Position numbers and translations under genes: made by a program. The notes below the pieces were generated by a model. That model searched no databases and was not told the DNA's origin. It worked only from the letters and a program-made list of their open reading frames with translations. Below, piece by piece: positions 3,021 through 22,038 of a DNA stretch of 64,000 nucleotides (positions are counted from its first letter, which is position 1; each line of letters starts with the position of its first letter). The stretch is from Sulfurovum sp. GTDB taxonomy: Bacteria; Campylobacterota; Campylobacteria; Campylobacterales; Sulfurovaceae. Where the stretch lies: positions 1 through 64,000 of the forward strand of contig JAMOSB010000035.1 in assembly GCA_027068485.1 (NCBI GenBank). Direction: 5' to 3'.

Positions 3021-3021
3021 A

Positions 3022-5148: not shown

Positions 5149-5299
5149 ATGCACTCCTTATCATATCTAGTTGATAGAGTATAGCCAAATTTGATAAGTC
5201 ATGTCAGAAAGTAGTGAGAATTAGAAGAGGAAGAGAAAAAAAAGCGATAAATAGAGAAAATCACCCAAAAAAGTGACAACCTTACGACACACAAGGGTA

Positions 5300-6150: not shown

Positions 6151-6705
6151 CTATTTCATAGACTCTTTTGCATATTTTTCACCTAGTTCATACGCGATCA
6201 AGTTGATCTCATGTACTTTTTTAGGTACTTTACTCAACATTGTATCGATAAGTACTTGTTTATCAATCGCTTCCATATAGGTATTTGCGATAGCCAATGC
6301 AACCACAGATTGTGTAATTACATTTCCTACCTCTTCTTTAGCGATAGTAATAATAGGTATCTCAACGATATTCCATTTTTTTCTATCCTCTTCTGTAGGT
6401 GTTACCAAGTTTGGCTCGATGACGATTGTCCCACCAGGTTTTACCCCATTTTTAAAAGATTGGTATGATACATTCGCAACCGAAAGCATAAAGTTTACTT
6501 CCCCATCATTTGCATAAGGGTAGTAGATCTCTTCATCATCAAGTTGGATATCAACAACCGTTGGACCACCACGCACTTGTGATGTATAGGTCGCTGTTTT
6601 GAGTCCAAAACCACCAGTTTTGATCTTCGCAGCTGCAAAGATCTCACCAGCGAGAAGAACACCTTGTCCACCAACACCCGTAAATCTCATTAATGTTTTA
6701 GCCAT
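6151..6705 (-). CDS. oorC: 2-oxoglutarate:acceptor oxidoreductase, gamma subunit
   Basis: 184 residues. The N-terminal GVGGQGVLLAGEIFA is the hallmark glycine-rich loop of the gamma subunit of 2-oxoacid:ferredoxin oxidoreductases. It is the last gene of oorDABC, 12 bases after oorB. The complex converts 2-oxoglutarate plus CoA to succinyl-CoA, passing electrons to ferredoxin or flavodoxin; autotrophic relatives run it in reverse in the reductive TCA cycle. Substrate assignment rests on the four-gene order known from C. jejuni and H. pylori and on the neighbouring sucCD. Confidence 0.93.
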   Translation of the reverse strand: MAKTLMRFTGVGGQGVLLAGEIFAAAKIKTGGFGLKTATYTSQVRGGPTVVDIQLDDEEIYYPYANDGEVNFMLSVANVSYQSFKNGVKPGGTIVIEPNLVTPTEEDRKKWNIVEIPIITIAKEEVGNVITQSVVALAIANTYMEAIDKQVLIDTMLSKVPKKVHEINLIAYELGEKYAKESMK

Positions 6706-6717
6706 GATGTTCGCTCC

Positions 6718-7575
6718 TTATATTTTTTTCTCAAAGTCATCTTGAGTGATTTTAGCTCTCTCACCCTGATGTACTTTTCGGATCTCTGCATACATATCAC
6801 AGTACTCATCTGCCTCTGTGTCTTGTTTCAAGATACCTGTAGGAAGAAGGTTGAGTTGCTCCTCTGGGCTGAGTGTATCATACTTCTTTTTAGAAACAGT
6901 GATACTATCGATCCAGTCAAGGTTAGCCATAGCAGAGTTCATTTTATTCTTTCTACCAAGGTTGATATGGCAGTTTGAGAGTGCTTCAACCAAGGCAAAA
7001 CCTTTATGTTGCATCGCCTGAACAAGGACTTTTTCAAGTTTCTTAGGAGAGGTAACACTCTCTCTTGCGACAAAGGAAGCACCTGATGCGATTGCAAGCT
7101 CACAGGTATCAAAAGTAGGATCGATGTTACCCGCTTTTTGAGAGACTGTCCACATACCTTTTGGTGTTGTTGGAGAGGTCTGAGAGTTGGTCAAACCATA
7201 GATGAAGTTGTTGATGATAATCATAGTGATATCGATATTTCTTCTACATCCATGAATCGTGTGGTTACCACCGATTGCGAGTGCATCACCATCCCCTGCT
7301 ACACAGACAACATACTTATCTGGGTTAGCCAACTTGATACCTGTAGCGTATGCTACAGTTCTACCGTGTGTAGTATGGACTGTGTTAAAGTCAACATAAG
7401 AAGAGAATCTTCCTGAACATCCAATACCTGAAACAACACACATATCATCTTGCTTGATACCAAGCTTATCTACAGCACGGATGAATGACTTAAGGATAAC
7501 TCCATCACCACAACCCCAACACCATAGTGTTGGCATCTTCTCTAGTCTTAAATATTTATCGTAATTAAATGCCAT
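6718..7575 (-). CDS. oorB: 2-oxoglutarate:acceptor oxidoreductase, beta (TPP) subunit
   Basis: 285 residues. The N-terminal LWCWGCGDG holds Cys19 and Cys22, and a third Cys lies in VSGIGCSGR, the pattern of the proximal iron-sulfur cluster. GDGDALAIGGNH is the thiamine-diphosphate/Mg binding motif. With OorA it forms the catalytic core. It starts one base after the oorA stop, consistent with translational coupling. Confidence 0.95.
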   Translation of the reverse strand: MAFNYDKYLRLEKMPTLWCWGCGDGVILKSFIRAVDKLGIKQDDMCVVSGIGCSGRFSSYVDFNTVHTTHGRTVAYATGIKLANPDKYVVCVAGDGDALAIGGNHTIHGCRRNIDITMIIINNFIYGLTNSQTSPTTPKGMWTVSQKAGNIDPTFDTCELAIASGASFVARESVTSPKKLEKVLVQAMQHKGFALVEALSNCHINLGRKNKMNSAMANLDWIDSITVSKKKYDTLSPEEQLNLLPTGILKQDTEADEYCDMYAEIRKVHQGERAKITQDDFEKKI

Positions 7576-7576
7576 A

Positions 7577-8728
7577 TTAGAATACCTCTTTTACTTTAGT
7601 AACAATTTCATGTGGAGAGATGGCTCTACCATTTACCTTATAAAGACCTTCGAGATCAAGTCTACCTGAAGCTCTCTCTATCTCTTCTGTATACTGTCTG
7701 ATGTTTAGCTCTACAACTAGAACATTTTTGATCTTATCTGTCATCTCTTTGATGCGTGTTGCGGGAGATGGCCAGAGTGTAATAGGTCTAAAGAGTCCTG
7801 CTTTGATACCATTTGCTCTGAGATGTCTAATCGCCTCTTTAGCTGCCAATGATACAGAACCATACGCGATGATAAGGACTTCACCCTCTTCACCTGTCAA
7901 GTCATCACACATAAACTCTTCATTTGATTCGATCTCATCTTGATGAGCCATTACTTTATCTTCAAGTCTCTGGATCAGTTTTCTACAAGTCTCAATCTCT
8001 TCTGTTGGGAAACCATTTTTATCATGGTGAAGCCCTGTATAGTGATATCTATACCCTTCAAACATTGGATTAAGTACAGCTGGCTCAGTCGCTTCACACT
8101 CATAAGGGAAGTACTCGTCTGCTGGACCATCAAAAGTCTTTCTAGGTACGATACCCGCTTCGACCTCTTCTACGGTTGGAAGTTCTGCTTTACCATGCAT
8201 ATGTCCGATTGTCTCATCAAGGAGTACAATAACAGGTTGCATAAATCTATCAGCAAGGTTGAATGCTCTGACAGTCTCCGTATAACACTCTGCTAGATTA
8301 CCTGCACAAAGTGTGATAGATCTGTAGTCACCGTGAGATGGGTTAGAAGCTTGCTTGATATCTCCTTGAGATACACGCGTTGGAAGACCTGTTGATGGCC
8401 CCCCTCTCATAACATTGACAAGTACCAATGGTACCTCTGCCATCTGAGCCAAACCGAGGTTTTCTGCTTTAAGTGATACACCAGGTCCTGATGTCGCTGT
8501 CAACGCTCTAACACCACTCATCGCTGCACCGATAACACAACAGATCCCTGCAATCTCATCTTCCATCTGAATCGCTGTTCCACCAACCTTTGGTAAAAGA
8601 TCAGAGATAACATGCATTACTTCACTAGATGGAGTGAGGGGATACCCTCCAAAAAATTTACATCCAGCATCTACCGCTGCTAATGCTGATAATTCGTTAC
8701 CAGTAGATATTACTTCTCTAGTTGCCAT
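7577..8728 (-). CDS. oorA: 2-oxoglutarate:acceptor oxidoreductase, alpha subunit
   Basis: 383 residues with the pyrimidine-binding domain of the 2-oxoacid oxidoreductase family: GCKFFGGYPLTPSSEVM near residue 22, GVRALTATSGPGVSLK near residue 75, and the C-terminal transketolase-like domain (EVLIIAYGSVSLAAKEAI). Its start overlaps the oorD stop by one base. This subunit binds 2-oxoglutarate and CoA together with OorB. Confidence 0.95.
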   Translation of the reverse strand: MATREVISTGNELSALAAVDAGCKFFGGYPLTPSSEVMHVISDLLPKVGGTAIQMEDEIAGICCVIGAAMSGVRALTATSGPGVSLKAENLGLAQMAEVPLVLVNVMRGGPSTGLPTRVSQGDIKQASNPSHGDYRSITLCAGNLAECYTETVRAFNLADRFMQPVIVLLDETIGHMHGKAELPTVEEVEAGIVPRKTFDGPADEYFPYECEATEPAVLNPMFEGYRYHYTGLHHDKNGFPTEEIETCRKLIQRLEDKVMAHQDEIESNEEFMCDDLTGEEGEVLIIAYGSVSLAAKEAIRHLRANGIKAGLFRPITLWPSPATRIKEMTDKIKNVLVVELNIRQYTEEIERASGRLDLEGLYKVNGRAISPHEIVTKVKEVF

Positions 8729-9057
8729 TAGTTCTCCTTATACTCTGTAGGTAGTCTATACCCATTGTTTACTATTGCCTCTTGTCTCGCTTTAGAAACA
8801 TCAGTGAGTTTAGCAAATTTAAACTCTTTCTTCTCTGCTACATAGATAGCAAAGTCTGGACATGAGAGTTCACACTCATTACATCCAATACATGCCTCTG
8901 GTGCAATCACACTAATCATCGCTCCCAAAGTTGAAGTTGGTTCTTGTTGCATAGAAAGCACACCTGCGGGACAAGCGTCCACACAAATATCACATGCTTT
9001 ACATCTAGCCGTATCTACCCATACCGGAGTATTCTCAGGAGCTACTACTGCTGCCAT
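8728..9057 (-). CDS. oorD: 2-oxoglutarate:acceptor oxidoreductase, delta (ferredoxin) subunit
   Basis: 109 residues with two [4Fe-4S] motifs: Cys19, 22, 25, 29 (CKACDICVDACP) and Cys56, 59, 62, 66 (CIGCNECELSCP). It is the first gene of the oor operon. AAGGGG precedes the ATG. It carries electrons between the OorAB catalytic core and the soluble acceptor. Confidence 0.94.
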   Translation of the reverse strand: MAAVVAPENTPVWVDTARCKACDICVDACPAGVLSMQQEPTSTLGAMISVIAPEACIGCNECELSCPDFAIYVAEKKEFKFAKLTDVSKARQEAIVNNGYRLPTEYKEN

Positions 9058-9306: not shown

Positions 9307-10185
9307 CTACGCTTTTTTAGATAAAACTTCTTTAATCGCTTTACCAATCTCAGCAGGAGAGACGACGACTTTGACACCGACTGCCTCAAGTGCTGCCATC
9401 TTCTCAGCAGCAGTTCCTGCACTACCACTAACAATCGCTCCAGCGTGACCCATAGTCTTACCTTTTGGTGCGGTTTGACCTGCGATGAACGCAACCACTG
9501 GCTTGGTGATCTGCTCTTTGATAAGCTTGGCTGCTTGAATCTCAAGATCTCCACCAATCTCACCAATCATTACGATCGCTTCCGTCTCAGGATCCGCCTC
9601 AAACATGGGCAAAATCTGCTTATAAGAGAGACCAATGATTGGATCTCCACCAATACCTACCGCTGTCGTGATACCATACCCCTCATTACAGACTTGGTTT
9701 GCTCCCTCATAGGTGAGTGTACCAGACTTAGAGATAAGTCCTACATTCCCTTTTTTGAAGATCATACCAGGCATAATACCAATCTTACACTCCTCAGCCG
9801 TGATAACACCTGGACAGTTTGGTCCAATAGTCATCATCCCATGCTTTGTTGCATGTGCTTTTGCCATCTGCATATCTTTGACAGGAGCTCCCTCAGTGAT
9901 AATAACCGCTAGCTCAATACCCGCTTCTGCTGCTTCCATCACTGCGTCCCCTACAAATGCAGGGGGTACAAAAATCATACTTACCGTAGCACCTGTTGCC
10001 TTGACCGCTTCACTTACGGTATTGAAGACAGGTTGACCAAGATGCTCTTGCCCCCCTTTGTTAGGTGTTACACCACCCACGATATTGGTACCATACGCAA
10101 TACACTGCTCTGCGTGGAAAGTTCCCTCTTTACCTGTAAAACCTTGTACGATAACTTTGCTATCTTTGTTTACTAAAATTGACAT
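9307..10185 (-). CDS. sucD: Succinyl-CoA synthetase alpha subunit
   Basis: 292 residues, normal length. [20 protein letters not shown] at the N-terminus is the CoA-binding Rossmann motif, and [14 protein letters not shown] near residue 245 contains the histidine that is phosphorylated. It interconverts succinyl-CoA and succinate with ADP/GDP phosphorylation. It follows sucC by 12 bases and lies beside oorDABC, whose product is succinyl-CoA. Confidence 0.96.
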
Positions 10186-10197
10186 CTCTCTACTCCC

Positions 10198-11370
10198 TTA
10201 CGCTTTTGCCGCAGCTTCGACTGCTTTTGCTGCACCATCACCTAGATCATCACCTACAATCAAGTTGGCGATATTGGCACCTTTAAGAATCTCTGCTGCT
10301 TCTGCGGCATTGGTTCCATCAAGTCTGACAATCACAGGGACATTCACATCAGTGATTTTTGTCGCTTCAATAATCCCGTTGGCGATACGATCACATCGTA
10401 CAATCCCACCAAAGATATTGACAAAGATCGCTTTAACATTTGGGTTTTTAAGGATGATTTCAAATCCTTTTGCCACTGTCTCAGCATTGGCACTACCCCC
10501 AACATCGAGGAAGTTCGCAGGCGTACCACCCATATGGTTGATTGTATCCATTGTACCCATCGCAAGACCCGCACCATTGACCATACATCCGATCTCACCA
10601 TCGAGTGCAACATACGAAAGACCATATTTTGCTGCCTCTACTTCATCCGCATCCTCTTCACTCAAATCACGCATCGCAGCGATCTCTGGCTGACGACCGA
10701 GTGCTGAGTTATCAAAGCCCATCTTACCATCAAGTGCTAAAAACTCACCAGAACCTGTACGCACCAATGGGTTGATCTCGATCATCTCTGCATCATTTTC
10801 CATATAGAGTTTGAAGAGTTTCTGTGCAAAGGAGATGATATTTTTCTGCTCTGCTTTGTCTGTGATACCAAGACCAAAGGCAAGCTCTCTACCGTGGAAT
10901 CCTTGGAACCCAATCGCAGGGTCAACAGGAACCGTGATGATCTTCTCAGGTGTATTCTCAGCCACATCTTCGATATTCATCCCACCCTCAGTTGAAGCCA
11001 TAATCAACGGCATCTCTAGTTTTCTATCGAGTACCACAGAGAGGTAGAACTCATCTTTGATATCCGCACCATCTTCGATATAGAGCTTCTGTACCAATTT
11101 ACCCTCAGGGCCTGTTTGGTGTGTGACCAGTGTCATACCAAGAATCTCATCAGAGAGCTCTCGTACTTCTTCAAGTGATTTAGCGAGTTTTACACCCCCA
11201 CCAAGACCACGACCACCTGCATGAATTTGAGCTTTGACAACCCAGATAGGTCCGCCCAACTCTTTAGCAGCCTCTACTGCTGCATCAACACTCTCCGCCA
11301 TTATACCTTTTGGTGTAGGTACACCATACTTGGCAAAAATCTGTTTTGCCTGATACTCATGAACATTCAC
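10198..11370 (-). CDS. sucC: Succinyl-CoA synthetase beta subunit
   Basis: 390 residues. N-terminus MNVHEYQAKQIFAKYGVPTP, ATP-grasp features KAQIHAGGRGLGGGVKLAKS and EINPLV, and the C-terminal NIFGGIVRCDRIANGI. Normal length and all family landmarks present. First gene of sucCD. The promoter region carries a 14-bp palindrome (11407-11420). Confidence 0.96.
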   Translation of the reverse strand: MNVHEYQAKQIFAKYGVPTPKGIMAESVDAAVEAAKELGGPIWVVKAQIHAGGRGLGGGVKLAKSLEEVRELSDEILGMTLVTHQTGPEGKLVQKLYIEDGADIKDEFYLSVVLDRKLEMPLIMASTEGGMNIEDVAENTPEKIITVPVDPAIGFQGFHGRELAFGLGITDKAEQKNIISFAQKLFKLYMENDAEMIEINPLVRTGSGEFLALDGKMGFDNSALGRQPEIAAMRDLSEEDADEVEAAKYGLSYVALDGEIGCMVNGAGLAMGTMDTINHMGGTPANFLDVGGSANAETVAKGFEIILKNPNVKAIFVNIFGGIVRCDRIANGIIEATKITDVNVPVIVRLDGTNAAEAAEILKGANIANLIVGDDLGDGAAKAVEAAAKA

Positions 11371-11564: not shown

Positions 11565-12509
11565 TTAGGCGAAAAACCCATTGGACTCAAGGATCTCAAT
11601 CCCCTCACGAATCGACGCAACAGAGCGAGCAAACTTCTCTTTGGTTGGCTCATCTAGCTCCAACTCGATAATCTCCTCAACCCCTTGACTACCAAGCACC
11701 ACAGGTACCCCAACAGTCACATCACTATAGCCATACTCTCCATCAAGCAGTACAGACGAGGGCATAACGATCTTACTATCATCCAAGATCGCCTCAACCA
11801 TCACAGAGATTGCACGACCTGGAGCGTAGTAGGCAGAGGTTCCTAGATACTTCACAATCTCCGCTCCCCCCTCTTTGGTGCGTGCGATAATATCTTCCAT
11901 ATCTTTTTGACTGATGAGTTGATTGAGGGGTACCCCTCCTACAGAGGAGGTCTCAGGCATCGGGATCATATGCTGTCCATGATCTCCAATGATCATCGCT
12001 CTCGTCTGTCCTGAACCATAACCTACCTTTTGGTGGATCTGATACGCCATGCGTGACCCATCCAAGGCACCCGCCATACCGATGATACGCTTTCGATCCC
12101 ACCCTGTCATCTTGTGAATCACATAACTCATCACATCGAGCGGATTGGAGACACAGAGGATAATCGCATCAGGAGAGTACTTTTGGATATTGCCGACGAC
12201 ATCCTTCATAATCTTTGCATTGATCATCAGTAGATCAGCGCGTGTCATCTCACTGCGTCGAGGTACTCCTGCGGTAATGACGACAATATCACACCCCACC
12301 AAACCACTCGCATCCTCTACCGCGGTGACGATCGTACTGTGTCTTGAGTAGTTGGTTGACTGCCCAATATCGAGTGCCTTTCCTTTGGCTACATCAGGGG
12401 CGATATCGTAGAGTACGACCTCATGACATGTTCCCATCATCGCCAAGCTATACGCAGCCGTAGCTCCTACAAATCCCGCACCTACAATTCCTACTTTTCT
12501 ACCTACCAT
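11565..12509 (-). CDS. mdh: Malate dehydrogenase, NAD-type paralog
   Basis: About 314 residues of the LDH/MDH superfamily. GAGFVGA is the dinucleotide loop and VVLYDIAPDVAKG carries the Asp that favours NAD. VPRRSEMTR has the Arg at the substrate-specificity position that marks malate rather than lactate dehydrogenases; GALDGSR has the catalytic Asp. The catalytic His lies in GDHGQHMIP, where most malate dehydrogenases have GxHGDxMVP, an unusual Asp-to-Gln change next to the His. AGGAG precedes the GTG/ATG start pair at 12512/12509. It is the last gene after etfBA, 28 bases downstream. A second, more typical paralog is at 17835-18794. Confidence 0.85.
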   Translation of the reverse strand: MVGRKVGIVGAGFVGATAAYSLAMMGTCHEVVLYDIAPDVAKGKALDIGQSTNYSRHSTIVTAVEDASGLVGCDIVVITAGVPRRSEMTRADLLMINAKIMKDVVGNIQKYSPDAIILCVSNPLDVMSYVIHKMTGWDRKRIIGMAGALDGSRMAYQIHQKVGYGSGQTRAMIIGDHGQHMIPMPETSSVGGVPLNQLISQKDMEDIIARTKEGGAEIVKYLGTSAYYAPGRAISVMVEAILDDSKIVMPSSVLLDGEYGYSDVTVGVPVVLGSQGVEEIIELELDEPTKEKFARSVASIREGIEILESNGFFA

Positions 12510-12539
12510 CACACTGCTCCTTTATTTGAATCTGCTATT

Positions 12540-14453
12540 CTACTTCACTTCCAAGCCAAAAGTAAAGCCACTTTTTACTTTTTCTATCAATTCAGGCAAG
12601 ACATCCTCATATTCACCCACCAAACCAAAGTCCGCATTGGCAAAAATCGTCTCATTGGCGTTGTGGTTGATTGCGATAATCGTCTCCGACTCTTTGATCC
12701 CTGCAATATGCTGTACCGCACCAGAGAGACCCACAGCGATATAGATTTTGGGGCGTACGGTCTTACCTGTCTGACCAATCTGGCGTGCATACTCCGCAAC
12801 TCCCTCATCGACCATCACACGCGAACACGCCCACTCTGCTTTGACACCTTGGGCTTTGAGACTCTCAGCGAGTTGCTTGATCATCTCCATCCCATCAGCT
12901 GTCGTACCACGCCCCCCTGCGATGATAATATCCGCACTATCGAGTGATGCCAAGCCACCCTCACCACGCACTGTCTTGATAATCTCAGAGGCAAATACCT
13001 TCTCCTCTAGTGTCGGTGTGAAGTGGCTTACCACCCCTTGACGACTTTCATCAGCAGAAGGAACCTCAAAAGTCCCTGCTCTAGCAGTCGAGATTTGAGG
13101 ACAGACAAAGCCCAAAATGGTCGCAAGCTTACTCTCTCCATAGGTAGGTCGTCGTGACTCTAGTATCGGGGCATAAATACGCTTCTCTTTACGGCTGATA
13201 TACTCACCAATCTCTAGTGCCGTACAGTCTGCTGTCACCCCACTAGAGGTCTTGACCCCTACGCGTGGAGCCAACTCACGCCCTGCGGTACTCGCTCCAA
13301 AGAGGGCAATCTCAGGCTTACGCTCAGCAATCACCTCGGCAAAGATCTCTGCAAATGGCAAGATCAGGTACTCTTGGAGTCTAGCGTCCTCCACGACAAT
13401 CACCTCATCACTTCCACGCGCGATCAACGCACTTGCCAACCCCTCAACCTCATGCCCTATCAACAGTGTAATCACCTTGGCATCGAGTGACTTTGCCAAC
13501 GATACCGCAGGAGTCAATAACTCAAATGAGGGCTGTGTAATCTTCCCATTGGCGACCTCGGCCCAGGTAAGCACCCCACTCGCTCCCCCTCTAAAGTCCA
13601 CCTCTTCAAATCCCTCGGGTCGTTTTTTGGCTTTTTTGACTTTTGCTTCTTTGGCTTCAATGGTGTTTTTACCTGAAGCGATACTCTGAATAAACGCCTC
13701 CACATCCCCATGCTCTGTCATCTTAGCAGGAGCTCTCTCACTCTTGATATTGGTCACTTTAGCGACAATCGTAGGTGAACCACTCAACCCAATCTTCTCA
13801 TCACTCAGGTTGATATCCTCGATACTAAAGGTTGTAAACCTACTCGCTTTTGCTTTGATTGTCCCACTGAGTGATGCACGGCGAGGAGGGATACCTGTCG
13901 GTGTAAAGGAGAGGGCACACGGTGTCGGCAGACGCATCATTTGATAGCCCCCTTCGATGATCCGTTTTGCCTCTACTTTTCCCTCTGTAAGGGTAGCCGT
14001 CTCGATGAAGGTTGCTTGGGGGATACCCATATTTTCAGCGACCTGAGAGGGGACATGAGCAGTATCTCCATCACTGGTCTGTCGTCCCGCCACGATGATA
14101 TACTCCTCATCCTTACCCGCACCAAAGCCCAAGTGCTTCAACATCGTAGAGATCGCCAACCCTGTCGCATAGGTATCTGACCCTCCAAGCTTTCTATCAC
14201 TCAGTAGATAGGCATCATCATACCCCATCGCCAACGCATTTCGTAGTGACTCCTCAAACGACGGAGGTCCCATAGAGCAGACGATGAGTCGTGCTTCAGG
14301 GTTCTCACGCTTCATCTGAAGCCCTGCCTCTAGGGCATAGCTACAATCTACATTGATGATAGACTTCGCCTTTGTTCTATCCATTAAACCATCATCACCC
14401 ATTCGCATCTCCGATGGAAGTGGCACCTGCTTCATTAAACTGATTATTGTCAT
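12540..14453 (-). CDS. Electron transfer flavoprotein, EtfB-EtfA fusion
   Basis: 637 residues in one open frame. Residues about 1-255 are an EtfB (beta) domain: MTIISLMKQVPLP, DCSYALEAGLQMK, GRQTSDGDTAHVPSQVAENM. A charged linker near residues 265-285 (KEAKVKKAKKRPEG) leads into an EtfA (alpha) domain: FGASTAGRELAPRVGVK, IIAGGRGTT, and the FAD signature VGLSGAVQHIAGIKESETII near the C-terminus. ETFs carry electrons from flavin dehydrogenases to ETF:quinone oxidoreductase, which is the gene just upstream (66-base gap). No acyl-CoA dehydrogenase lies nearby, so the electron donor is unknown. Normally alpha and beta are separate genes; the fusion fixes a 1:1 ratio. Confidence 0.9.
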   Translation of the reverse strand: MTIISLMKQVPLPSEMRMGDDGLMDRTKAKSIINVDCSYALEAGLQMKRENPEARLIVCSMGPPSFEESLRNALAMGYDDAYLLSDRKLGGSDTYATGLAISTMLKHLGFGAGKDEEYIIVAGRQTSDGDTAHVPSQVAENMGIPQATFIETATLTEGKVEAKRIIEGGYQMMRLPTPCALSFTPTGIPPRRASLSGTIKAKASRFTTFSIEDINLSDEKIGLSGSPTIVAKVTNIKSERAPAKMTEHGDVEAFIQSIASGKNTIEAKEAKVKKAKKRPEGFEEVDFRGGASGVLTWAEVANGKITQPSFELLTPAVSLAKSLDAKVITLLIGHEVEGLASALIARGSDEVIVVEDARLQEYLILPFAEIFAEVIAERKPEIALFGASTAGRELAPRVGVKTSSGVTADCTALEIGEYISRKEKRIYAPILESRRPTYGESKLATILGFVCPQISTARAGTFEVPSADESRQGVVSHFTPTLEEKVFASEIIKTVRGEGGLASLDSADIIIAGGRGTTADGMEMIKQLAESLKAQGVKAEWACSRVMVDEGVAEYARQIGQTGKTVRPKIYIAVGLSGAVQHIAGIKESETIIAINHNANETIFANADFGLVGEYEDVLPELIEKVKSGFTFGLEVK

Positions 14454-14519
14454 ACTCTTCCTTTATCTCTTTTCTCTCTACGCTCTCTAAGAGGTGTTGC
14501 TCCCTCTCTACTCAGACTC

Positions 14520-16181
14520 TTACATATAACGATACTCAGGTCCATCTCCACCATAAGGAACACTCCAAGTAATCCCCCCAAGTGGGGATTTGATATCGCA
14601 GCTCTTACAGTGGACACAGTTTTCTGCGTGGAGTCGTAGGGACTTGACCCCCTCTTTGTCCTCATGAAGCTCATAGACCTCCGCAGGACAGAAGGAGGCT
14701 TCAGACAAGCCATACGCTTCGATATTCTCTTTTTGAAACTGAGCTTTATTGTTGATACGCAAGTGGACAGGCTGTACCTCATCGTGCATCGCTTTGGAGT
14801 AGAAGACACTGGTGACTTTATCAAAGGTACGCTTCTTATCAAAGTGGAGTTTACCCTTAAACCGCTCCGCAAAAGGTACCCCTTGATACGCCTCAGTCGT
14901 CTGAGTCTCATCACAATCAGCATGAACAGGTGGGACAAGCAGACACGCACCACCCGTCACAAGTTGAACTCCCATCTTGAGTCCCCCTACGATCATTCCC
15001 TCTTGCATCACCGCACGCATATTACGCACGGGGTAGAGTTCGGTATAGATACTACTAGCGTTGACTCGCGTCTCATATCCCGCAAGCATCTGCTTACTTG
15101 TATCCTCTGCCAAGAGTGCCTCTACGGCTGTCTCTCCTGCACAGATACCTGAACGCACCGCAAGGTGTACCCCTTTGAGTCGTGCAGTAGTGAGGAATCC
15201 AGCACTATCTCCTACGATCATCAAGTTCTCATCATAGTAACGAGGAAGTGCGTTCCATCCCCCCTCAGGGAGTGTCTTGGCACCAAACTCAAGGATCGAT
15301 CCCCCCTCCAAAAACTTCGCCACATAGGGGTGGGTTTTCCATATCTGCATCGCAGCGTGTACATCAAAGCTAGGGTCTTTGTAATCAAGCCCGACAACCA
15401 ACCCTAAGGCTACACGACTCTCACTCAATCCATAGATAAAGCCTCCACCAAACTCAGACTTATCTTGGAGCGGGTAGCCAAAGGTATGATAGACCGCCCC
15501 CGCTTCGATCGTTCCCTCAGGGACTTTCCAGATCTCTTTGACACCGAGTGAGTAGATTTGTGGATTTTTCCCGATATCGAGATTGAAGCGATTAACGACC
15601 TTTTTGGTGAGACTTCCGCGTGTCCCCTCTGCGAGGATGACGAGCTTTGCTTCGACCGTAGTACCCGCTTGGTAGTTCTTCTGCTTGACGCCCTCATGGT
15701 CGACACCTGTATCTTTGAGCTTCACACCCGATACGCATCCCGCTTCATTGTAGAGCATCTCATCAACTGCAAACCCACTATAGACCTCTACACCCTTCTG
15801 TTTCGCAATCTGAGCAAGGTATTGACAGATAGCCCCCAAAGAGGCGGTGTAGTTTCCTTCATTGCCCATATAGGGAGGGTGAAAAGGAAGTACCATCTCT
15901 CCCTCTTCACTGAGCTTTGCCACACTATCGGTGGTGACTTTGGAGTCAAATGGCACCCCCGCATACTCCTCTGCACTCAAAAGCGACTCAAAGACCTTGG
16001 GACGGATAACAGCACCAGAGAGGATATGTGAGCCGACCTCACGCCCCTTCTCTATCACCATGATACGCTTCTCTTCTCCCGCCTGCTTCAACCGATTTGC
16101 CATCTCAATCGCTGTCGCCAACCCCGCAGGACCCGCCCCAACAATCACCACATCACGCTGTATGATATCTGTCTTATCCAT
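14520..16181 (-). CDS. Electron transfer flavoprotein:quinone oxidoreductase
   Basis: About 553 residues. VVIVGAGPAGLATAIEMA is the N-terminal FAD site; GSHILSGAVI and the middle region follow the ETF-QO/FixC family; the C-terminus carries four Cys in CPAEVYE and NCVHCKSCDIKSP, the [4Fe-4S] ferredoxin-like domain, followed by ITWSVPYGGDGPEY. ATG at 16181 is preferred because GAAAGG lies five bases upstream; GTG at 16187 is too close. It is expected to sit at the inner membrane and pass electrons from the fused ETF (next gene) to menaquinone. It heads the etf-mdh operon. Confidence 0.9.
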   Translation of the reverse strand: MDKTDIIQRDVVIVGAGPAGLATAIEMANRLKQAGEEKRIMVIEKGREVGSHILSGAVIRPKVFESLLSAEEYAGVPFDSKVTTDSVAKLSEEGEMVLPFHPPYMGNEGNYTASLGAICQYLAQIAKQKGVEVYSGFAVDEMLYNEAGCVSGVKLKDTGVDHEGVKQKNYQAGTTVEAKLVILAEGTRGSLTKKVVNRFNLDIGKNPQIYSLGVKEIWKVPEGTIEAGAVYHTFGYPLQDKSEFGGGFIYGLSESRVALGLVVGLDYKDPSFDVHAAMQIWKTHPYVAKFLEGGSILEFGAKTLPEGGWNALPRYYDENLMIVGDSAGFLTTARLKGVHLAVRSGICAGETAVEALLAEDTSKQMLAGYETRVNASSIYTELYPVRNMRAVMQEGMIVGGLKMGVQLVTGGACLLVPPVHADCDETQTTEAYQGVPFAERFKGKLHFDKKRTFDKVTSVFYSKAMHDEVQPVHLRINNKAQFQKENIEAYGLSEASFCPAEVYELHEDKEGVKSLRLHAENCVHCKSCDIKSPLGGITWSVPYGGDGPEYRYM

Positions 16182-16204
16182 ATTCACCTTTCATCTATAA
16201 TCTG

Positions 16205-16410: not shown

Positions 16411-16968
16411 TTAGTTTTTGACCTCATACTGCTCTCTACCCATCTGATAGAGATCATTACCATAGGTATCATTGATGACCGTCACAGGAAAATCCTTCAC
16501 GGTAATCTTACGCACCGCTTCGGGTCCTAGCTCAGGGTAGGCGATCACCTCCGCAGAGGTGATCTTCTTGCCAAGTAGTGCACCCGCACCCCCTGTCGCA
16601 CCAAAGTAGATCCCATCATAGGCAACACACGCATCTTTAACCCCTTGGTCGCGTTTCCCTTTACCAATCATCCCCTTGGAGCCATTTTTGAGCATCGTAG
16701 GAGAGAAGGTATCCATACGGTAGGAGGTCGTAGGACCTGCACTCCCGATAGGATCTCCTGGCTTAGGAGGCGTTGGTCCAACAAAGTAGATAATAGACCC
16801 TTCTAGATCAAAAGGAAGCTCCTCACCCGCCTCGATGAGTGCCACAAGCTTTTTGTGGGCAGCATCGCGTGCGGTAAAAATCGTACCATTGAGTAGTACC
16901 GTATCACCCGCTTTGAGTTGTTTGGTATCTTCTGATGTCAGTGGTGTGGTTAAAGTATAATTTGCCAT
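16411..16968 (-). CDS. Class I fumarate hydratase, beta subunit
   Basis: 185 residues of the FumB C-terminal/TtdB family: GDTVLLNGTIFTARDAAHK, IIYFVGPTPPKPGDPIGSAGPTT, and FGATGGAGALLGKKI. It pairs with the alpha subunit 12 bases upstream. The pair hydrates fumarate to malate and is oxygen-sensitive because of its [4Fe-4S] cluster. L-tartrate dehydratase is the close alternative, but the operon with malate dehydrogenase favours fumarase. Confidence 0.9.
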   Translation of the reverse strand: MANYTLTTPLTSEDTKQLKAGDTVLLNGTIFTARDAAHKKLVALIEAGEELPFDLEGSIIYFVGPTPPKPGDPIGSAGPTTSYRMDTFSPTMLKNGSKGMIGKGKRDQGVKDACVAYDGIYFGATGGAGALLGKKITSAEVIAYPELGPEAVRKITVKDFPVTVINDTYGNDLYQMGREQYEVKN

Positions 16969-16980
16969 CGCTACGCTCCC

Positions 16981-17832
16981 TTATAGTGTGATATGTGTAT
17001 GTCTTGATGAGTGGCACTGTACATTGACAGAGACAGGTAGTGACGCGATATGACAAGGGTTAGACTCGATATGTACCGCCAACGCTGTCTTCGTTCCTCC
17101 CATACCCATCGCACCGATACCAAGGTTGTTGATCTCTGTGAGCATACGCGCCTCAAGCTCTGCCATCTCAGGATCAGGGTTGGTAGTCTCTAGGTCTCTA
17201 AAGAGGGCATGCTTTGAGGAGATACACGCCTTCTCAAAAGTCCCTCCGATACCTACCCCCACGGTGATAGGAGGACAAGGGTTCCCCCCCGCATCAGAGA
17301 TCACCTCTTTGACATAGGCGACGATACCATCTTTGCCCGCTGCGGGTGGAAAGACTCTTGCACGAGAGACATTCTCACTCCCCCCACCTTTGGCAGCGTA
17401 CTCGATATCGATCTTATCTCCTGCGACAATATCGAAGTGGATAATCGCAGGGAGGTTGTACCCTACGCTATCTTTGAGATTGGCACGACTAAAAGGCTCA
17501 CAAGTAGAGGCACGAAGGTACCCCTCTCGATACCCCTCTTCTGTCCCTTTATTGATCGCATCTCTCAGGAGTCCCCCTTTGATGCGTACCTCATCCCCTA
17601 CCTTCACAAAGAAGACAGCAAGCCCTGTATCTTGACAGAGGGGGCGTTTCTCATCTTTGGCGATATTGGCATTCTCAAGGATCTGACGAATCACCTCTTT
17701 ACTTACAGGAGATTTCTCCTCCTCCATTGCTTGTGCCAACGCATCATAAGTATCTTGTGGTAGATCTGTACCACAGTGCATAATCATATCTCTGATGGCT
17801 TTTACCACCACTTCAAACTCAATCTCTCTCAC
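16981..17832 (-). CDS. Class I fumarate hydratase, alpha subunit
   Basis: 283 residues of the TtdA/FumA N-terminal family. Three Cys in conserved settings are candidate ligands of the catalytic [4Fe-4S] cluster: RPLCQDTG, GGNPCPPITVGVGIGG and FEKACISSKHALFR. GVGIGGTFE is a family landmark. It starts two bases after the upstream malate dehydrogenase stop, so the order is mdh-fumA-fumB and fumarate hydration is coupled to malate oxidation or oxaloacetate reduction. Confidence 0.92.
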   Translation of the reverse strand: MREIEFEVVVKAIRDMIMHCGTDLPQDTYDALAQAMEEEKSPVSKEVIRQILENANIAKDEKRPLCQDTGLAVFFVKVGDEVRIKGGLLRDAINKGTEEGYREGYLRASTCEPFSRANLKDSVGYNLPAIIHFDIVAGDKIDIEYAAKGGGSENVSRARVFPPAAGKDGIVAYVKEVISDAGGNPCPPITVGVGIGGTFEKACISSKHALFRDLETTNPDPEMAELEARMLTEINNLGIGAMGMGGTKTALAVHIESNPCHIASLPVSVNVQCHSSRHTHITL

Positions 17833-17834
17833 CC

Positions 17835-18794
17835 TTACTTCTCCTCATCAAAAAAATTTAACTCATAGAGCTTATCAACCATCTCTTGTACCGAGGCAAC
17901 AGAACTCTTAAACCGCTCTTGCTGTAGTGGCTTGAGTGTCATATTGATCACCTGCTCTCCACCCCCTGCACCGATCATCACAGGCACTCCTGAGACGATA
18001 TCACTATAGCCATACTCACCCTTCATCATAATTGCACACGAGTGGATCTGATTGGTATCTTTCAAAATCGCATCGACCATCACAGTTGTAGACTTCGCAG
18101 GAGCATAATAGGCTGATCCATTCCCCAGTAGATTAACGATCTGTGCACCACCATTGCGTGTCTTCGTCACAATCTCACCAATCTCCTCAGAGTCTAGTAG
18201 ATCCTCGATAGGCACACCCGCTACAGTCGTAAACTTAGGAAGAGGCACCATCGTATCACCATGCCCCCCCATCACCGTCGCTCTAATCTGACCTGCACCA
18301 TACTCTAGCTTCTCATAGATGAAGTTTGCCATGCGTGCCGCATCGAGTATCCCCGCCATACCCAAGACTCTCTCTCGAGGGAACCCTGTAAACTTCAATG
18401 CCACATAGGTCATCACATCCAGAGGATTAGAGACGACCACCACGATAGCATCAGGAGCATACTCTTTGATCTCTTTGGCATACCCTTTGACAATCTCAGC
18501 ATTCTTCATCAAAAGATCATCACGGCTCATCCCTGGGGTGCGTGGTGTCCCCGCGGTGATGACAATGACATCTGACCCCTCCATACACTCAGGACCTTTG
18601 GCTGCCTTGACGATCGTATGCTGTCGTGCGGCATTGGAGGCTTGTGACATATCGAGTGCCTTCCCCTTGGCAACATCATAGTTTCGTCCACGAAGCACTA
18701 CATTATGACAAGTCCCATTCATCGCCAAGATAAATGCAACAGTCGAACCAAAATTCCCTGTACCAATTACGGTAACTTTTTTCCCTTTAGCCAT
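17835..18794 (-). CDS. mdh: Malate dehydrogenase, possible NADP-type paralog
   Basis: About 319 residues. The motifs are textbook malate dehydrogenase: TPRTPGMSRDDLL (Arg substrate clamp), GILDAAR (catalytic Asp) and GGHGDTMVPL (catalytic His). At the end of the second strand, where NAD enzymes have an Asp, it reads VVLRGRNYDVAKG: Asp replaced by Gly with Arg on both sides, a pattern associated with binding the NADP phosphate. ATG at 18794 is chosen because AAAGG sits six bases upstream; the ATG at 18800 abuts it. Heads the mdh-fumAB operon. The cofactor prediction is inference. Confidence 0.88.
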   Translation of the reverse strand: MAKGKKVTVIGTGNFGSTVAFILAMNGTCHNVVLRGRNYDVAKGKALDMSQASNAARQHTIVKAAKGPECMEGSDVIVITAGTPRTPGMSRDDLLMKNAEIVKGYAKEIKEYAPDAIVVVVSNPLDVMTYVALKFTGFPRERVLGMAGILDAARMANFIYEKLEYGAGQIRATVMGGHGDTMVPLPKFTTVAGVPIEDLLDSEEIGEIVTKTRNGGAQIVNLLGNGSAYYAPAKSTTVMVDAILKDTNQIHSCAIMMKGEYGYSDIVSGVPVMIGAGGGEQVINMTLKPLQQERFKSSVASVQEMVDKLYELNFFDEEK

Positions 18795-18838
18795 TTCCAT
18801 CCTTTATATATCAAATCTTCCATAGAGTGACTTCGCTA

Positions 18839-19139: not shown

Positions 19140-21323
19140 TTAGATCGCATCAATAATAGCATTCAGAGTTGCTGAAGGTCTCATTGCCTTCTCTGCCAAC
19201 TCGTCATTGGGATGGAAGTATCCACCGATATCTTGTGCTTTACCCTCTACAGCCAAAAGCTCTTCGATGATTTTTGCTTCATTCTCTTTGAGTGCTTTAG
19301 CAACAGGTGCAAACTTCTCTGCGAGTTCTGCGTTTGAACCATTTGCAAGAGCATCTGCCCAGTACTGTGCTACAAAGAAGTGAGACGCTTTGTTGTCTGG
19401 CTCTCCACACTTTCTGCTTGGTGCTTTGTTGTTTTCAAGGTAGCCTTCATTTGCTGTATCTAGTGCAGCTGTAAGAGCCTCTAGCTTCTCATCTGAGTGC
19501 TTACGACCGATAAATCTCAATGACTCAGCCAATGCCAAGAACTCACCAAGGCTATCCCATCTGAGGTGACCCTCTGCGAGGAACTGATCGACATGCTTAG
19601 GAGCAGATCCACCCGCACCTGTCTCATACAATCCACCACCTGCAAGCAATGGCACGATAGAGAGCATCTTAGCAGATGTTCCTAACTCCAAGATTGGGTA
19701 CATATCAGTCAAGTGATCTCTAAGGACATTTCCTGTGACTGCAATAGTGTTTTCACCAGCTCTTACTCTAGCATTGGTAAATCGTGTAGCATCCGTCACA
19801 TTCATGATTTGAATATCAAGTCCCTCTGTATCGAGGTCAGCCAAGTAAGTTTTCACTTTTTTGATCATCTGAGCATCGTGTGCTCTGTTCTCATCCAACC
19901 AGAAGATTACAGGCACTTTTTCGATTTGACCACGCTCAACTGCTAGTCTTACCCAGTCTTTGATTGGGATATCTTTGGCTCTAGACATTCTCCAGATATC
20001 ACCTTTTTCACACTCAAAGCTCATCAACTCTGTACCATCTTCAGCCGTTACAGTAACCGTTCCAGCCTCTTCTAGCTCAAAAGTTGTTGGGTGAGAACCA
20101 TACTCTTCTGCTTTTTGAGCCATAAGACCCACATTCGCCATAGAACCCATTGTAGTCACATCATATTGACCATTTTTTACACAGTCTGCTACCATCTCAG
20201 CGTGGAACATACCATAAGTACTATCTGGGATGACCGCTACACACTCTACTGCGTCACCATTTCTGTTCCACTGTTTACCACCCTCTCTTACGACGACAGG
20301 CATAGAAGCATCGATGATGACATCGTTAGATGCGTTGAAGTTTGTTGTCCCTTTATCAGAGTCAACCATTGCGATCTCAGGATTATCAGACTCTACTACC
20401 GCTTGGAATGCTGCTTTGATCTCAGCCTCTTTCTCGTGACCTGCGATCTTCTTCTCAAGGTCACTCATACCAAGGTTAGGGTTGACATTAAGGGATGCAA
20501 ATACCTCCGCATACTTGTCAAATACCTCTTGGAAGAAGACGGTAAACGCATGACCAAACATAATAGGGTCAGAGATTTTCATCATCGTTGCTTTAAGGTG
20601 AATTGACCATAAAACACCATTTGCTTTTGCATCTTCAATCGTTTTAGCGATAAATGTTTTAAGTTTAGCCACAGACATAAATGTACCATCAAGTACCTCT
20701 TTATCAAGTGCATCAATCGTTGCCAACTCTTTACCATTTAACGCGATCGTTACCTTTTGTGCTTTATCCACAGTGACTGATTTTTCATTACCTTGGAAAT
20801 CACCATCGCCTGCCATATGTGCGACATATGCTTTGGAGTTCTCAGCAAATGCTTTGAGTCTATGAGGGTGATTTTGAGCAAATTTCTTAACTGCTTTTGC
20901 TGCTCTTCTGTCAGAGTTTCCTTCTCTAAGTACAGGGTTTACCGCACTTCCAAGACAAGTATTGTATTTTGCTCTAATCGCTTCTTCTTCTGCATTAGCA
21001 GGATTTTCAGGGAAATCAGGGATATCAAAACCTTGACCTTGAAGCTCAGCGATACACTCTTTAAGCTGTCCAATAGACGCAGAGATGTTTGGAAGCTTAA
21101 TGATGTTTCCATCTGCTTCAAGTACCACCTCTCCAAGCTTACTAAGCTCATCTTCAGCAAGACCCATAGCTGAGAGTACTCTACCTGCAAGAGAGATATC
21201 AGAAGTGACTACTTCTACACCTGCTGCTTGAGTAAACGCATTGACGATTGGGAGCAATGAGTAGGTAGCGAGTGCTGGTGCCTCATCGATTTTTGACCAG
21301 ATGATTTTTGGTAGTTTTGACAT
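19140..21323 (-). CDS. icd: Monomeric NADP-dependent isocitrate dehydrogenase
   Basis: 727 residues, the length of the monomeric type (about 740), which is unrelated in size to the 400-residue dimeric enzyme. Landmarks: MSKLPKIIWSKIDEAPALAT, LREGNSDRRAAKAVK, DKGTTNFNASNDVIIDASMP, GLYETGAGGSAPKHVDQFLAEGHLRWDSLGEF split across the C-terminal half. It decarboxylates isocitrate to 2-oxoglutarate with NADP, or runs the reverse reaction in a reductive cycle. It lies alone 340 bases upstream of mdh-fumAB, close enough to suggest shared metabolic control but with its own promoter. Confidence 0.96.
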   Translation of the reverse strand: MSKLPKIIWSKIDEAPALATYSLLPIVNAFTQAAGVEVVTSDISLAGRVLSAMGLAEDELSKLGEVVLEADGNIIKLPNISASIGQLKECIAELQGQGFDIPDFPENPANAEEEAIRAKYNTCLGSAVNPVLREGNSDRRAAKAVKKFAQNHPHRLKAFAENSKAYVAHMAGDGDFQGNEKSVTVDKAQKVTIALNGKELATIDALDKEVLDGTFMSVAKLKTFIAKTIEDAKANGVLWSIHLKATMMKISDPIMFGHAFTVFFQEVFDKYAEVFASLNVNPNLGMSDLEKKIAGHEKEAEIKAAFQAVVESDNPEIAMVDSDKGTTNFNASNDVIIDASMPVVVREGGKQWNRNGDAVECVAVIPDSTYGMFHAEMVADCVKNGQYDVTTMGSMANVGLMAQKAEEYGSHPTTFELEEAGTVTVTAEDGTELMSFECEKGDIWRMSRAKDIPIKDWVRLAVERGQIEKVPVIFWLDENRAHDAQMIKKVKTYLADLDTEGLDIQIMNVTDATRFTNARVRAGENTIAVTGNVLRDHLTDMYPILELGTSAKMLSIVPLLAGGGLYETGAGGSAPKHVDQFLAEGHLRWDSLGEFLALAESLRFIGRKHSDEKLEALTAALDTANEGYLENNKAPSRKCGEPDNKASHFFVAQYWADALANGSNAELAEKFAPVAKALKENEAKIIEELLAVEGKAQDIGGYFHPNDELAEKAMRPSATLNAIIDAI

Positions 21324-21434: not shown

Positions 21435-21875
21435 CTACACAATATACGCTGCACGAATCCCCACAGGGATAGGGGTTTGCAGTCTCATCTGCACCCCCTC
21501 ACCGACTGGCTCAAGGTGGTAGGGGATATAGAGATAACGCGCCCCGACCACCTTGCCAATCTGGCTACGCTCCTCTAGGTGAAGGCGGATACTAGGGGGA
21601 CGATCCTTGGCGATATGTGCGGGGAGCGGGGTATCGAGTGCCAAGAGTGCGACAGTGATATCACGGGTGGCTATCTGCCCACACACCGCCTCCTCTAGTG
21701 CCTCATAGCCCGCCTTAGGGTCTTGGTGCGGGGGTGTGAGAAGCTCACGCTGCTCCGCACTATCGAGGAGGATACCAAACGGCAGACACACCCCACCACG
21801 CTCCAACTGCTCCGTAGCATACGCCACTGCCTCTTCCAATACCATCATCGCCAACGCATCGCTACGATCTGACAC
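21435..21875 (-). CDS. Hypothetical protein
   Basis: About 146 residues; I do not recognise a family. The sequence is balanced and protein-like, with an N-terminal helix (SDALAMMVLEEAVAYATEQL), then GGVCLPFGILLD and a beta-rich C-terminal half ending VGIRAAYIV. No signal peptide or membrane segment. A GTG start at 21875 is preferred because AAGGAG lies five bases upstream; the GTG at 21881 abuts the ribosome site. It lies 110 bases upstream of icd on the same strand and may be cotranscribed with it. Confidence 0.65.
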   Translation of the reverse strand: MSDRSDALAMMVLEEAVAYATEQLERGGVCLPFGILLDSAEQRELLTPPHQDPKAGYEALEEAVCGQIATRDITVALLALDTPLPAHIAKDRPPSIRLHLEERSQIGKVVGARYLYIPYHLEPVGEGVQMRLQTPIPVGIRAAYIV

Positions 21876-22038
21876 ATCCACTCCTTCTACTACTTTCGAT
21901 AAGCAGACTATAGCAGAGTTTGGATAAGAGTGCTATAAGTAGCTAAAAGCGTTACCAAAAGTATCGATAGAGGGGGAGCGTGTAGAGTAAAGAGGAGAGT
22001 GATAGCCTATGACCACCACCCTAAAGATGCAAAAAGGG

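Follow-up and report, generated by a model that had tools for sequence, protein, structure and literature searches.

The two subunits of an electron transfer flavoprotein (ETF) are fused, EtfB to EtfA, in a chain encoded beside an ETF:quinone oxidoreductase (ETF-QO) within 64,000 nt of DNA from Sulfurovum sp. (contig JAMOSB010000035.1 of assembly GCA_027068485.1, positions 1 to 64,000, termed here the window), and this fused ETF is a real protein family, with members in Campylobacterota and Bacteroidota. From the residues of the family and its gene neighbourhood we propose, at a probability of roughly 0.55, that the fusion and its ETF-QO would act as a compact, two-chain equivalent of the Fix/EtfABCX systems, coupling NADH, menaquinone and ferredoxin. 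The host is a CO2-fixing bacterium whose genome measures 1.73 Mb and is 98.4% complete. The first-pass annotation of the window had described EtfB and EtfA joined by a Lys-rich linker in one uninterrupted 637-residue frame, adjoined by an ETF-QO with a [4Fe-4S] domain and followed by a malate dehydrogenase (MDH) gene, and each of these features was recovered in our analysis (Table 1).

The fused ETF is read from an ATG start as a single frame without internal stop, with an N-terminal EtfB part (residues ~1-240), a Lys-rich linker (~240-286) and a C-terminal EtfA part (~287-637). Pfam places two ETF-domain stretches on the chain (the best at 294-480) and a FAD-binding ETF_alpha domain on residues 504-587. 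With NCBIfam, the fused ETF of the window stays below the cut-off of every model, E-values and cut-offs being throughout those of the public models. Counted between E239 and D286 or their aligned equivalents, the linker of the 81 family members spans 46-53 aa and contains on average 15% Lys. An AlphaFold model of the fused ETF, built with 70 of the 81 family sequences, supports a folded chain (mean pLDDT 83.4, pTM 0.85) with low confidence at residues 27-36 and 268-274. When this model was compared to solved structures with VIA-align, ETF chains ranked at the top (5ol2 with Z 28.1 and 4kpu with 27.6), the canonical 1efv following closely at 25.4; the match list hardly tests residues 1-246.

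The survey of the fusion across Campylobacterota that the first-pass annotation had proposed was carried out by scanning GTDB genomes and keeping the best 80 of 104 relatives. Together with the window and three loci from a set of near relatives, and after removal of three duplicates, these amount to 81 distinct members, 33 in Campylobacterota (counting L011, which has no phylum label) and 48 in Bacteroidota. Their best-segment identity to the fused ETF of the window is 64-78% and 80 of the 81 keep one frame of >600 aa, which excludes chance or an assembly error as the origin of the fusion; contig ends truncate loci L060, L079 and L082. A tree of 79 members puts the 46 Bacteroidota rows together on one side of a branch with 100% SH-aLRT support. 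The fusion is carried by four of 60 near relatives, the genome of the window included, and no relative was found on viral contigs; among plasmids, 793 records with ETFs were retrieved, the best place of each showing <60% identity to the fused ETF. It is to be noted that counts over related genomes ignore kinship except where a tree is cited, that several genomes are incomplete metagenome-assembled genomes (MAGs) and that, judged by their contigs, G060, G067 and G086 are the same as G023 (58% complete), G033 (72%) and G046 (97%), respectively.

The ETF-QO gene stands directly upstream of the fused ETF gene in 77 of the 79 loci with sequence there; in L057 and L080 a small frame (104 or 124 aa) intervenes. 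Downstream, the two phyla differ: the next gene encodes an MDH (Mdh2-type) in all 30 Campylobacterota loci that extend 700 nt or more beyond the ETF, whether in tricarboxylic acid (TCA) clusters or elsewhere, versus none of the 45 Bacteroidota loci with room for it. When the gene neighbourhoods were clustered (84 loci, including three duplicates), only the ETF-QO and the Campylobacterota MDH emerged as recurrent beside the ETF, non-recurring neighbours being partly annotated, and no conserved partner gene was found beside the Bacteroidota pair. Three genes preceding ETF-QO do recur in L016 and L018 (403 or 412, 322 and 693 aa); two of them resemble by eye a TAXI/TRAP-type uptake system, and what this system imports might give a clue to the role of the module. 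One further locus that carries the unit, L028 (CAMCYD010000063.1), belongs to a record titled Helicobacter pylori PMSS1 with a genome of ~2.7 Mb, a MAG label that looks wrong.

Both halves of the fused chain resemble bifurcating ETFs. Compared to solved structures, the EtfA half scores 161-217 bits with bifurcating ETFs (CarE, Clostridioides difficile EtfA, EtfABCX, A. fermentans, LctC) and 85-92 bits with canonical ones, and the EtfB half 92-151 and 30-55 bits, respectively. Gly123 of A. fermentans EtfB is described as invariant in bifurcating ETFs, canonical ETFs tending to carry there a larger residue that keeps the FMN moiety of FAD from binding (PMC12630350). By hand count against 4kpu_B this position corresponds to G129, the Gly of the motif SDGDT, which is conserved in 81 of 81 members; the bulky residue of canonical ETFs, as in DDDCNQTG, is thus not found in the fused family. 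The earlier suggestion that DGDTAHVP is nearer to the ETFs of anaerobes than to the DDCNQTG type is borne out, DGDTA being a bifurcating-ETF motif and G129 its diagnostic site. In Thermotoga maritima EtfABCX, four residues near the bifurcating FAD were mutated (Arg38, Pro239 and Val242 of the small subunit and Arg140 of the large one), and exchange of Arg140 abolished ferredoxin reduction (PMC10734219). They are matched in the fused family by R26 (80/80, one gap), P227, V230 and R435 (81/81 each), and R435 also aligns, by hand count, with CarE Arg203 and C. difficile EtfA Arg136. The whole group-2 motifs RXGV, GXXSPTXV and RPXFGG read RTKA, GSPTIV and RPTYGE in the family, which keeps their key residues and does not match the motifs exactly. 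In a control panel, bifurcating-type residues were shared by both nitrogen-fixation FixA proteins and by an acyl-CoA-dehydrogenase-linked Bacteroides ETF, the Ilyobacter EtfB being unreadable. Four plasmid-borne ETFs of aerobic Proteobacteria, taken as canonical from their hosts and low similarity, all have Asp at position 129 and lack R26 and P227, and they keep V230 and R435. As bifurcating-type ETFs hold a FAD in each subunit and oxidize NADH (PMC5861303), we infer that the fused ETF would likewise carry two FADs and use NADH.

The adjoining ETF-QO combines in one chain a FAD domain, a quinone-binding domain (PF21162) and a 4Fe-4S domain (PF05187), as canonical ETF-QOs do, and scores 358.5 bits with the mammalian enzyme (2gmh) versus 93.8 bits with EtfC of 7koe. 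Cysteines C500, C524, C527 and C530 of the Fe-S domain are invariant in 31 aligned sequences and were read as ligands of one cluster. The listed frame starts with GTG; the start at 16181 chosen in the first-pass annotation is an ATG codon lying 6 nt inside it. EtfX carries two clusters (PMC10734219), and electrons are described to pass through its cluster II, the need for cluster I being presented as open; its clusters are said to share their coordination with the mammalian ETF-QO cluster (PMC10765413). Since the EtfABCX path uses cluster II, coordinated like that of mammalian ETF-QO, a one-cluster ETF-QO is reasonable as a high-potential branch.

The first-pass annotation had pictured an electron route into the quinone pool from an unknown flavin enzyme, perhaps with bifurcation, and had reported no acyl-CoA dehydrogenase nearby. 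The latter observation extends to the whole host genome, in which PF00441 has no match. The quinone route and bifurcation-type chemistry are supported, the tested residues being present and invariant; an unknown flavin dehydrogenase as necessary donor is not, as the host has no PF00441 match, the FAD-oxidase_C family is near-universal and the Bacteroidota show no conserved partner, sarcosine/dimethylglycine and trimethylamine dehydrogenases lying outside the search. Indeed, no separate flavin dehydrogenase is required, because bifurcating-type ETFs are described to oxidize NADH themselves (PMC5861303). The host contains no ETF besides the fused one, which is also the sole ETF in 19 of 19 ETF-carrying Campylobacterota genomes tested, and no ETF was found in the 37 tested relatives without the fusion. 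Acyl-CoA dehydrogenase was rejected as a partner, since neither the host nor 17 of these 19 genomes yielded a match (PF00441 matches occur in G065 and G080). Bacteroidota with the fused ETF do possess an acyl-CoA dehydrogenase in 23 of 24 cases, together with a second, separate EtfA in 21 of 24. Since 18 of these 21 separate EtfA genes have an acyl-CoA dehydrogenase match no more than 2 kb away on their contig, the separate EtfA is more likely than the fused ETF to be the partner of that enzyme. A dehydrogenase gene beside etfBA, as in the Bcd-, Car- and Ldh-Etf systems, was not found among the genes that recur across the clustered neighbourhoods.

The unlinked flavin dehydrogenases whose co-occurrence was to be looked for according to the first-pass annotation lead to the first alternative, an ordinary relay in which such an enzyme, likeliest of the single-domain glycolate/D-lactate/2-hydroxyglutarate type, would pass electrons through the fused ETF and ETF-QO to menaquinone. 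The host encodes on another contig one FAD-oxidase_C protein (lactate/glycolate type), whose closest PDB relatives are LctD of Ldh-Etf (307.7 bits) and glycolate oxidase (307.5 bits), an enzyme of this family is present in 37 of 43 fused-ETF genomes, and the canonical type of the ETF-QO would suit such a relay. However, the family occurs in 56 of the 60 relatives, only four of which have the fused ETF, and one of these four (G033, 72% complete) lacks the enzyme. Among the fused-ETF Bacteroidota, five of 24 are without it, and where it is present its frames measure 750-1057 aa in 18 of 19 genomes; hence no one enzyme type accompanies the ETF. A GlcD/LctD-like dehydrogenase was accordingly rejected as dedicated partner on account of its near-universal family, while still being a possible donor. 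As the residues of the fused ETF are moreover of bifurcating type, we regard the relay as improbable, if the best placed of the distinct alternatives.

Further comparison of the 19 Campylobacterota genomes with the fused ETF and the 37 relatives without it gave similar distributions for NuoF (PF01512; absent from the host, from 17/19 and from 29/37), ATP-citrate lyase (present in the host, in 15/19 and in 30/37) and Mqo-family matches (in the host, over cut-off, in 11/19 and in 20/37, 17 of the latter over cut-off). None of acyl-CoA dehydrogenase, FAD-oxidase_C, NuoF, ATP-citrate lyase and Mqo singles out the ETF carriers. Replacement of Mqo or of complex I NuoF by the unit, or a tie to autotrophy, was rejected for want of any such pattern in these counts.

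In Campylobacterota the genomic link to MDH offers a possible connection to central metabolism. The acidic residue at the end of strand beta-2 normally selects NAD in the malate dehydrogenase family. A tree of 80 MDHs placed 29 of 29 ETF-linked enzymes (Mdh2) on one side of a 100% branch and the TCA-core Mdh1 on the other. At this beta-2 position Asp was found in every Mdh2 that could be read, and Gly or Ala in the Mdh1 of all 12 readable loci with the ETF. Among the 60 relatives, genomes with a single MDH keep the Asp (34/34, ignoring weak second matches in G055 and G057), versus Mdh1 without Asp in 17 of the 18 genomes with both enzymes. G012 is the exception, G005 has one Mdh1 of each kind, and G041 contributes an Mdh2 of only 61% identity, placed on a long branch; the remaining relatives comprise five without MDH match, G023 and G046 with only Mdh2, and G002 with only a fragment. 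G046, from a different family, carries the fused ETF and is 97% complete. The lost Asp of Mdh1 is replaced by Gly in 23 rows and by Ala in 5, in different clades, and fewer than two changes cannot account for the tree. As its strongly supported branches demand just one, independent support for the pattern is small. These data suggest that Mdh2 serves NAD(H) and that Mdh1 may have drifted to NADP(H) where both exist. The pattern holds with or without the ETF and therefore speaks for Mdh2 as the NAD-side enzyme, not for the ETF. A strict dependence of Mdh2 on the ETF was rejected, as Mdh2 is also found in relatives without it; one supported side branch of the tree unites 13 of these 16 copies, L128, L129 and L144 lying outside. 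Locus L011 has three MDH genes, for Mdh1, for an ETF-linked Mdh2 and for a further Mdh2 grouping with those of genomes without the ETF.

Under the proposed mechanism, NADH would reduce the bifurcating FAD in the EtfB part. A first electron would travel via the EtfA-part FAD and then the [4Fe-4S] cluster and FAD of ETF-QO before reaching menaquinone, with ferredoxin or flavodoxin accepting the second. Reversal of this cycle is possible as well, menaquinol and reduced ferredoxin then yielding NADH, and in Campylobacterota the NAD-type Mdh2 could link the module to malate and oxaloacetate via NADH. Bifurcation itself, ferredoxin as low-potential partner, the cofactor preferences of the MDHs and the direction of the cycle are all inferred. 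The host needs or makes reduced ferredoxin, since ATP-citrate lyase is present and a 2-oxoacid:ferredoxin oxidoreductase is encoded in the same gene row. Potentials are quoted as -74 mV for menaquinone, about -450 mV for ferredoxin and -320 mV for NADH (PMC10734219). With these values the mean of menaquinone and ferredoxin is -262 mV, and bifurcation driven by NADH would be downhill by ~58 mV on average. The malate potential is -172 mV; at standard potentials malate therefore could not drive bifurcation and the reverse route to malate would be downhill.

Such a reverse mode, in which the NADH formed would let Mdh2 reduce oxaloacetate in the reductive TCA cycle of Campylobacterota, is a variant of the bifurcating reading whose odds overlap with it, and we give it a low likelihood comparable to that of the relay. 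It agrees with these potentials, with the invariable MDH neighbour in Campylobacterota, with the NAD-type Asp of Mdh2 and with ATP-citrate lyase in most ETF-carrying genomes. Nevertheless, this lyase is equally common without the ETF, Mdh2 also occurs in genomes without it, and Bacteroidota carry the pair without Mdh2. Still tentative, although somewhat better placed, is the most complete form of our proposal: an undescribed two-polypeptide bifurcating or confurcating system of Campylobacterota and Bacteroidota that would have recruited a canonical ETF-QO as its high-potential branch and that, in reductive-TCA lithoautotrophs, could be wired through an NAD-specific Mdh2, with Mdh1 retuned to NADP(H), so as to link the quinol, ferredoxin, NADH and NADPH pools at oxaloacetate/malate.

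Several observations weigh against the bifurcating reading. The ETF-QO is of the one-cluster canonical type instead of FixC with a two-cluster FixX, and the portions of the literature searched (including PMC6085437, PMC9232219 and PMC5691135) contain no published case of a bifurcating ETF with a one-cluster ETF-QO partner. V230 and R435 do not discriminate, because the four canonical-type plasmid ETFs keep both. Among the separate second ETFs of Bacteroidota, 18 of 21 were readable and all are of bifurcating type at the tested residues (with one gap at R26); as most of them are linked to acyl-CoA dehydrogenase, such residues are compatible with a dehydrogenase partner. The family also departs from the group-2 motifs, with DGDTAHVP (H in 80 and Y in one of 81) versus DGDTAQVGP, an invariant RPTYGE versus RPXFGG, and R26-T-K-A versus RXGV. 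Two Bacteroidota genomes, G099 and G100, have an acyl-CoA dehydrogenase and the fused ETF as the only ETF found. Finally, the fold comparison fails to separate bifurcating from canonical ETFs, since 1efv scores close to 5ol2 and 4kpu.

The motif changes bear on another alternative, which we consider unlikely and behind the relay, namely that a two-FAD ETF uses NADH without bifurcating, as a simple NADH:menaquinone oxidoreductase replacing the missing NADH module of complex I. NuoF is indeed absent from the host and most ETF-carrying Campylobacterota, and the deviant H133, P135 and E440 may have shifted the flavin potentials. Yet this absence does not call for such a system, because it extends to most relatives without the ETF, and R435, the equivalent of T. 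maritima Arg140, is retained. Least likely is a malate:quinone route in which Mdh2 would oxidize malate and ETF with ETF-QO would carry the electrons to menaquinone in place of Mqo: the order ETF-QO, ETF, Mdh2 recurs in several genomic contexts, but Mqo matches show no replacement pattern and the Bacteroidota pair works without a downstream MDH.

In the window the pair is embedded in a one-strand row of TCA genes (Table 1), with ETF-QO 66 nt upstream and Mdh2 27 nt downstream of the fused ETF. From its gene position, the four-part 2-oxoacid:ferredoxin oxidoreductase probably acts on 2-oxoglutarate. A 148-aa frame without Pfam or NCBIfam match lies upstream of the isocitrate dehydrogenase gene (21435-21881, minus strand), and a pair of DUF1501 and DUF1800 proteins is encoded downstream of the oxidoreductase genes (1581-5154, minus strand).

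Table 1. Genes of the TCA row around the fused ETF, in window coordinates.
Feature	Coordinates	Strand	Evidence
Monomeric NADP-dependent isocitrate dehydrogenase	19140..21323	-	Pfam/NCBIfam
Mdh1, TCA-cluster malate dehydrogenase, Gly for Asp at end of strand beta-2 (LRGRN), putatively NADP(H)-leaning	17835..18800	-	Pfam/NCBIfam, alignment
Two-part class I fumarase	16411..17832 (16411-16968 + 16981-17832)	-	Pfam/NCBIfam
ETF:quinone oxidoreductase, 555 aa, canonical (mammalian-like), one [4Fe-4S] domain	14520..16187	-	Pfam, PDB bit scores
Fused EtfB-EtfA, 637 aa	12540..14453	-	open frame, Pfam, PDB relatives, residue alignment, AlphaFold model
Mdh2, ETF-linked malate dehydrogenase, NAD-type (Asp, end of strand beta-2)	11565..12512	-	Pfam/NCBIfam, tree, alignment
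Succinyl-CoA ligase	9307..11370 (alpha 9307-10185, beta 10198-11370)	-	Pfam/NCBIfam
Four-part 2-oxoacid:ferredoxin oxidoreductase, ferredoxin-using	6151..9057	-	gene place (for 2-oxoglutarate)

Little is settled on how sulfur- and hydrogen-oxidizing Campylobacterota keep NADH, quinol and low-potential ferredoxin in balance on the reductive TCA cycle. If confirmed, a bifurcating ETF linked to quinone and encoded in a TCA gene row would provide a concrete and testable route for this balance, and it would mean that bifurcating ETFs can work with an ordinary one-piece ETF-QO. The names 'ETF alpha/beta' and 'ETF-QO' alone are no ground for assuming fatty-acid oxidation in genomes with the fused family. 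More ETF alpha and ETF-QO protein was reported with N2O in Nitrosophilus labii (PMC11539149), whose ETF may or may not be of the fused type.

Fusion of an ETF is not unique to this family, because plasmid pROB02 of Rhodococcus opacus B4 carries another natural fusion of EtfB and EtfA in one 603-aa chain (L225:2477-4288). This protein differs from the fused ETF of the window in being only 25.8% identical over 98% of the query and in lacking, by eye, the RP motif; it is annotated as a FAD-binding protein and encoded beside a rubredoxin gene, with no ETF-QO listed within 2.5 kb in an incomplete gene table. The canonical ETF/ETF-QO couple of mitochondria and aerobic bacteria shares with the window the type of its ETF-QO, whereas Gly replaces at the beta-flavin site the bulky residue, e.g. 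Asp, of canonical ETFs, and the host genome is devoid of acyl-CoA dehydrogenase matches. CarDE (caffeyl-CoA reductase-Etf), Bcd-Etf and Ldh-Etf count among the solved structures most similar to the ETF halves and have the same bifurcating-FAD residues where aligned, but they consist of separate subunits, and ETF-QO stands here in place of their adjacent dehydrogenase subunit. The Fix/EtfABCX systems of T. maritima (PDB 7koe) and of diazotrophs (FixABCX) have in common with the fused unit the bifurcating-type EtfAB residues, a quinone reductase, a ferredoxin-like Fe-S domain and quinone as high-potential acceptor. They are encoded by four genes versus two here, where EtfB and EtfA are fused, a one-chain, one-cluster ETF-QO takes the place of FixC and the two-cluster FixX, and the HVP and YGE motif changes set the family apart.

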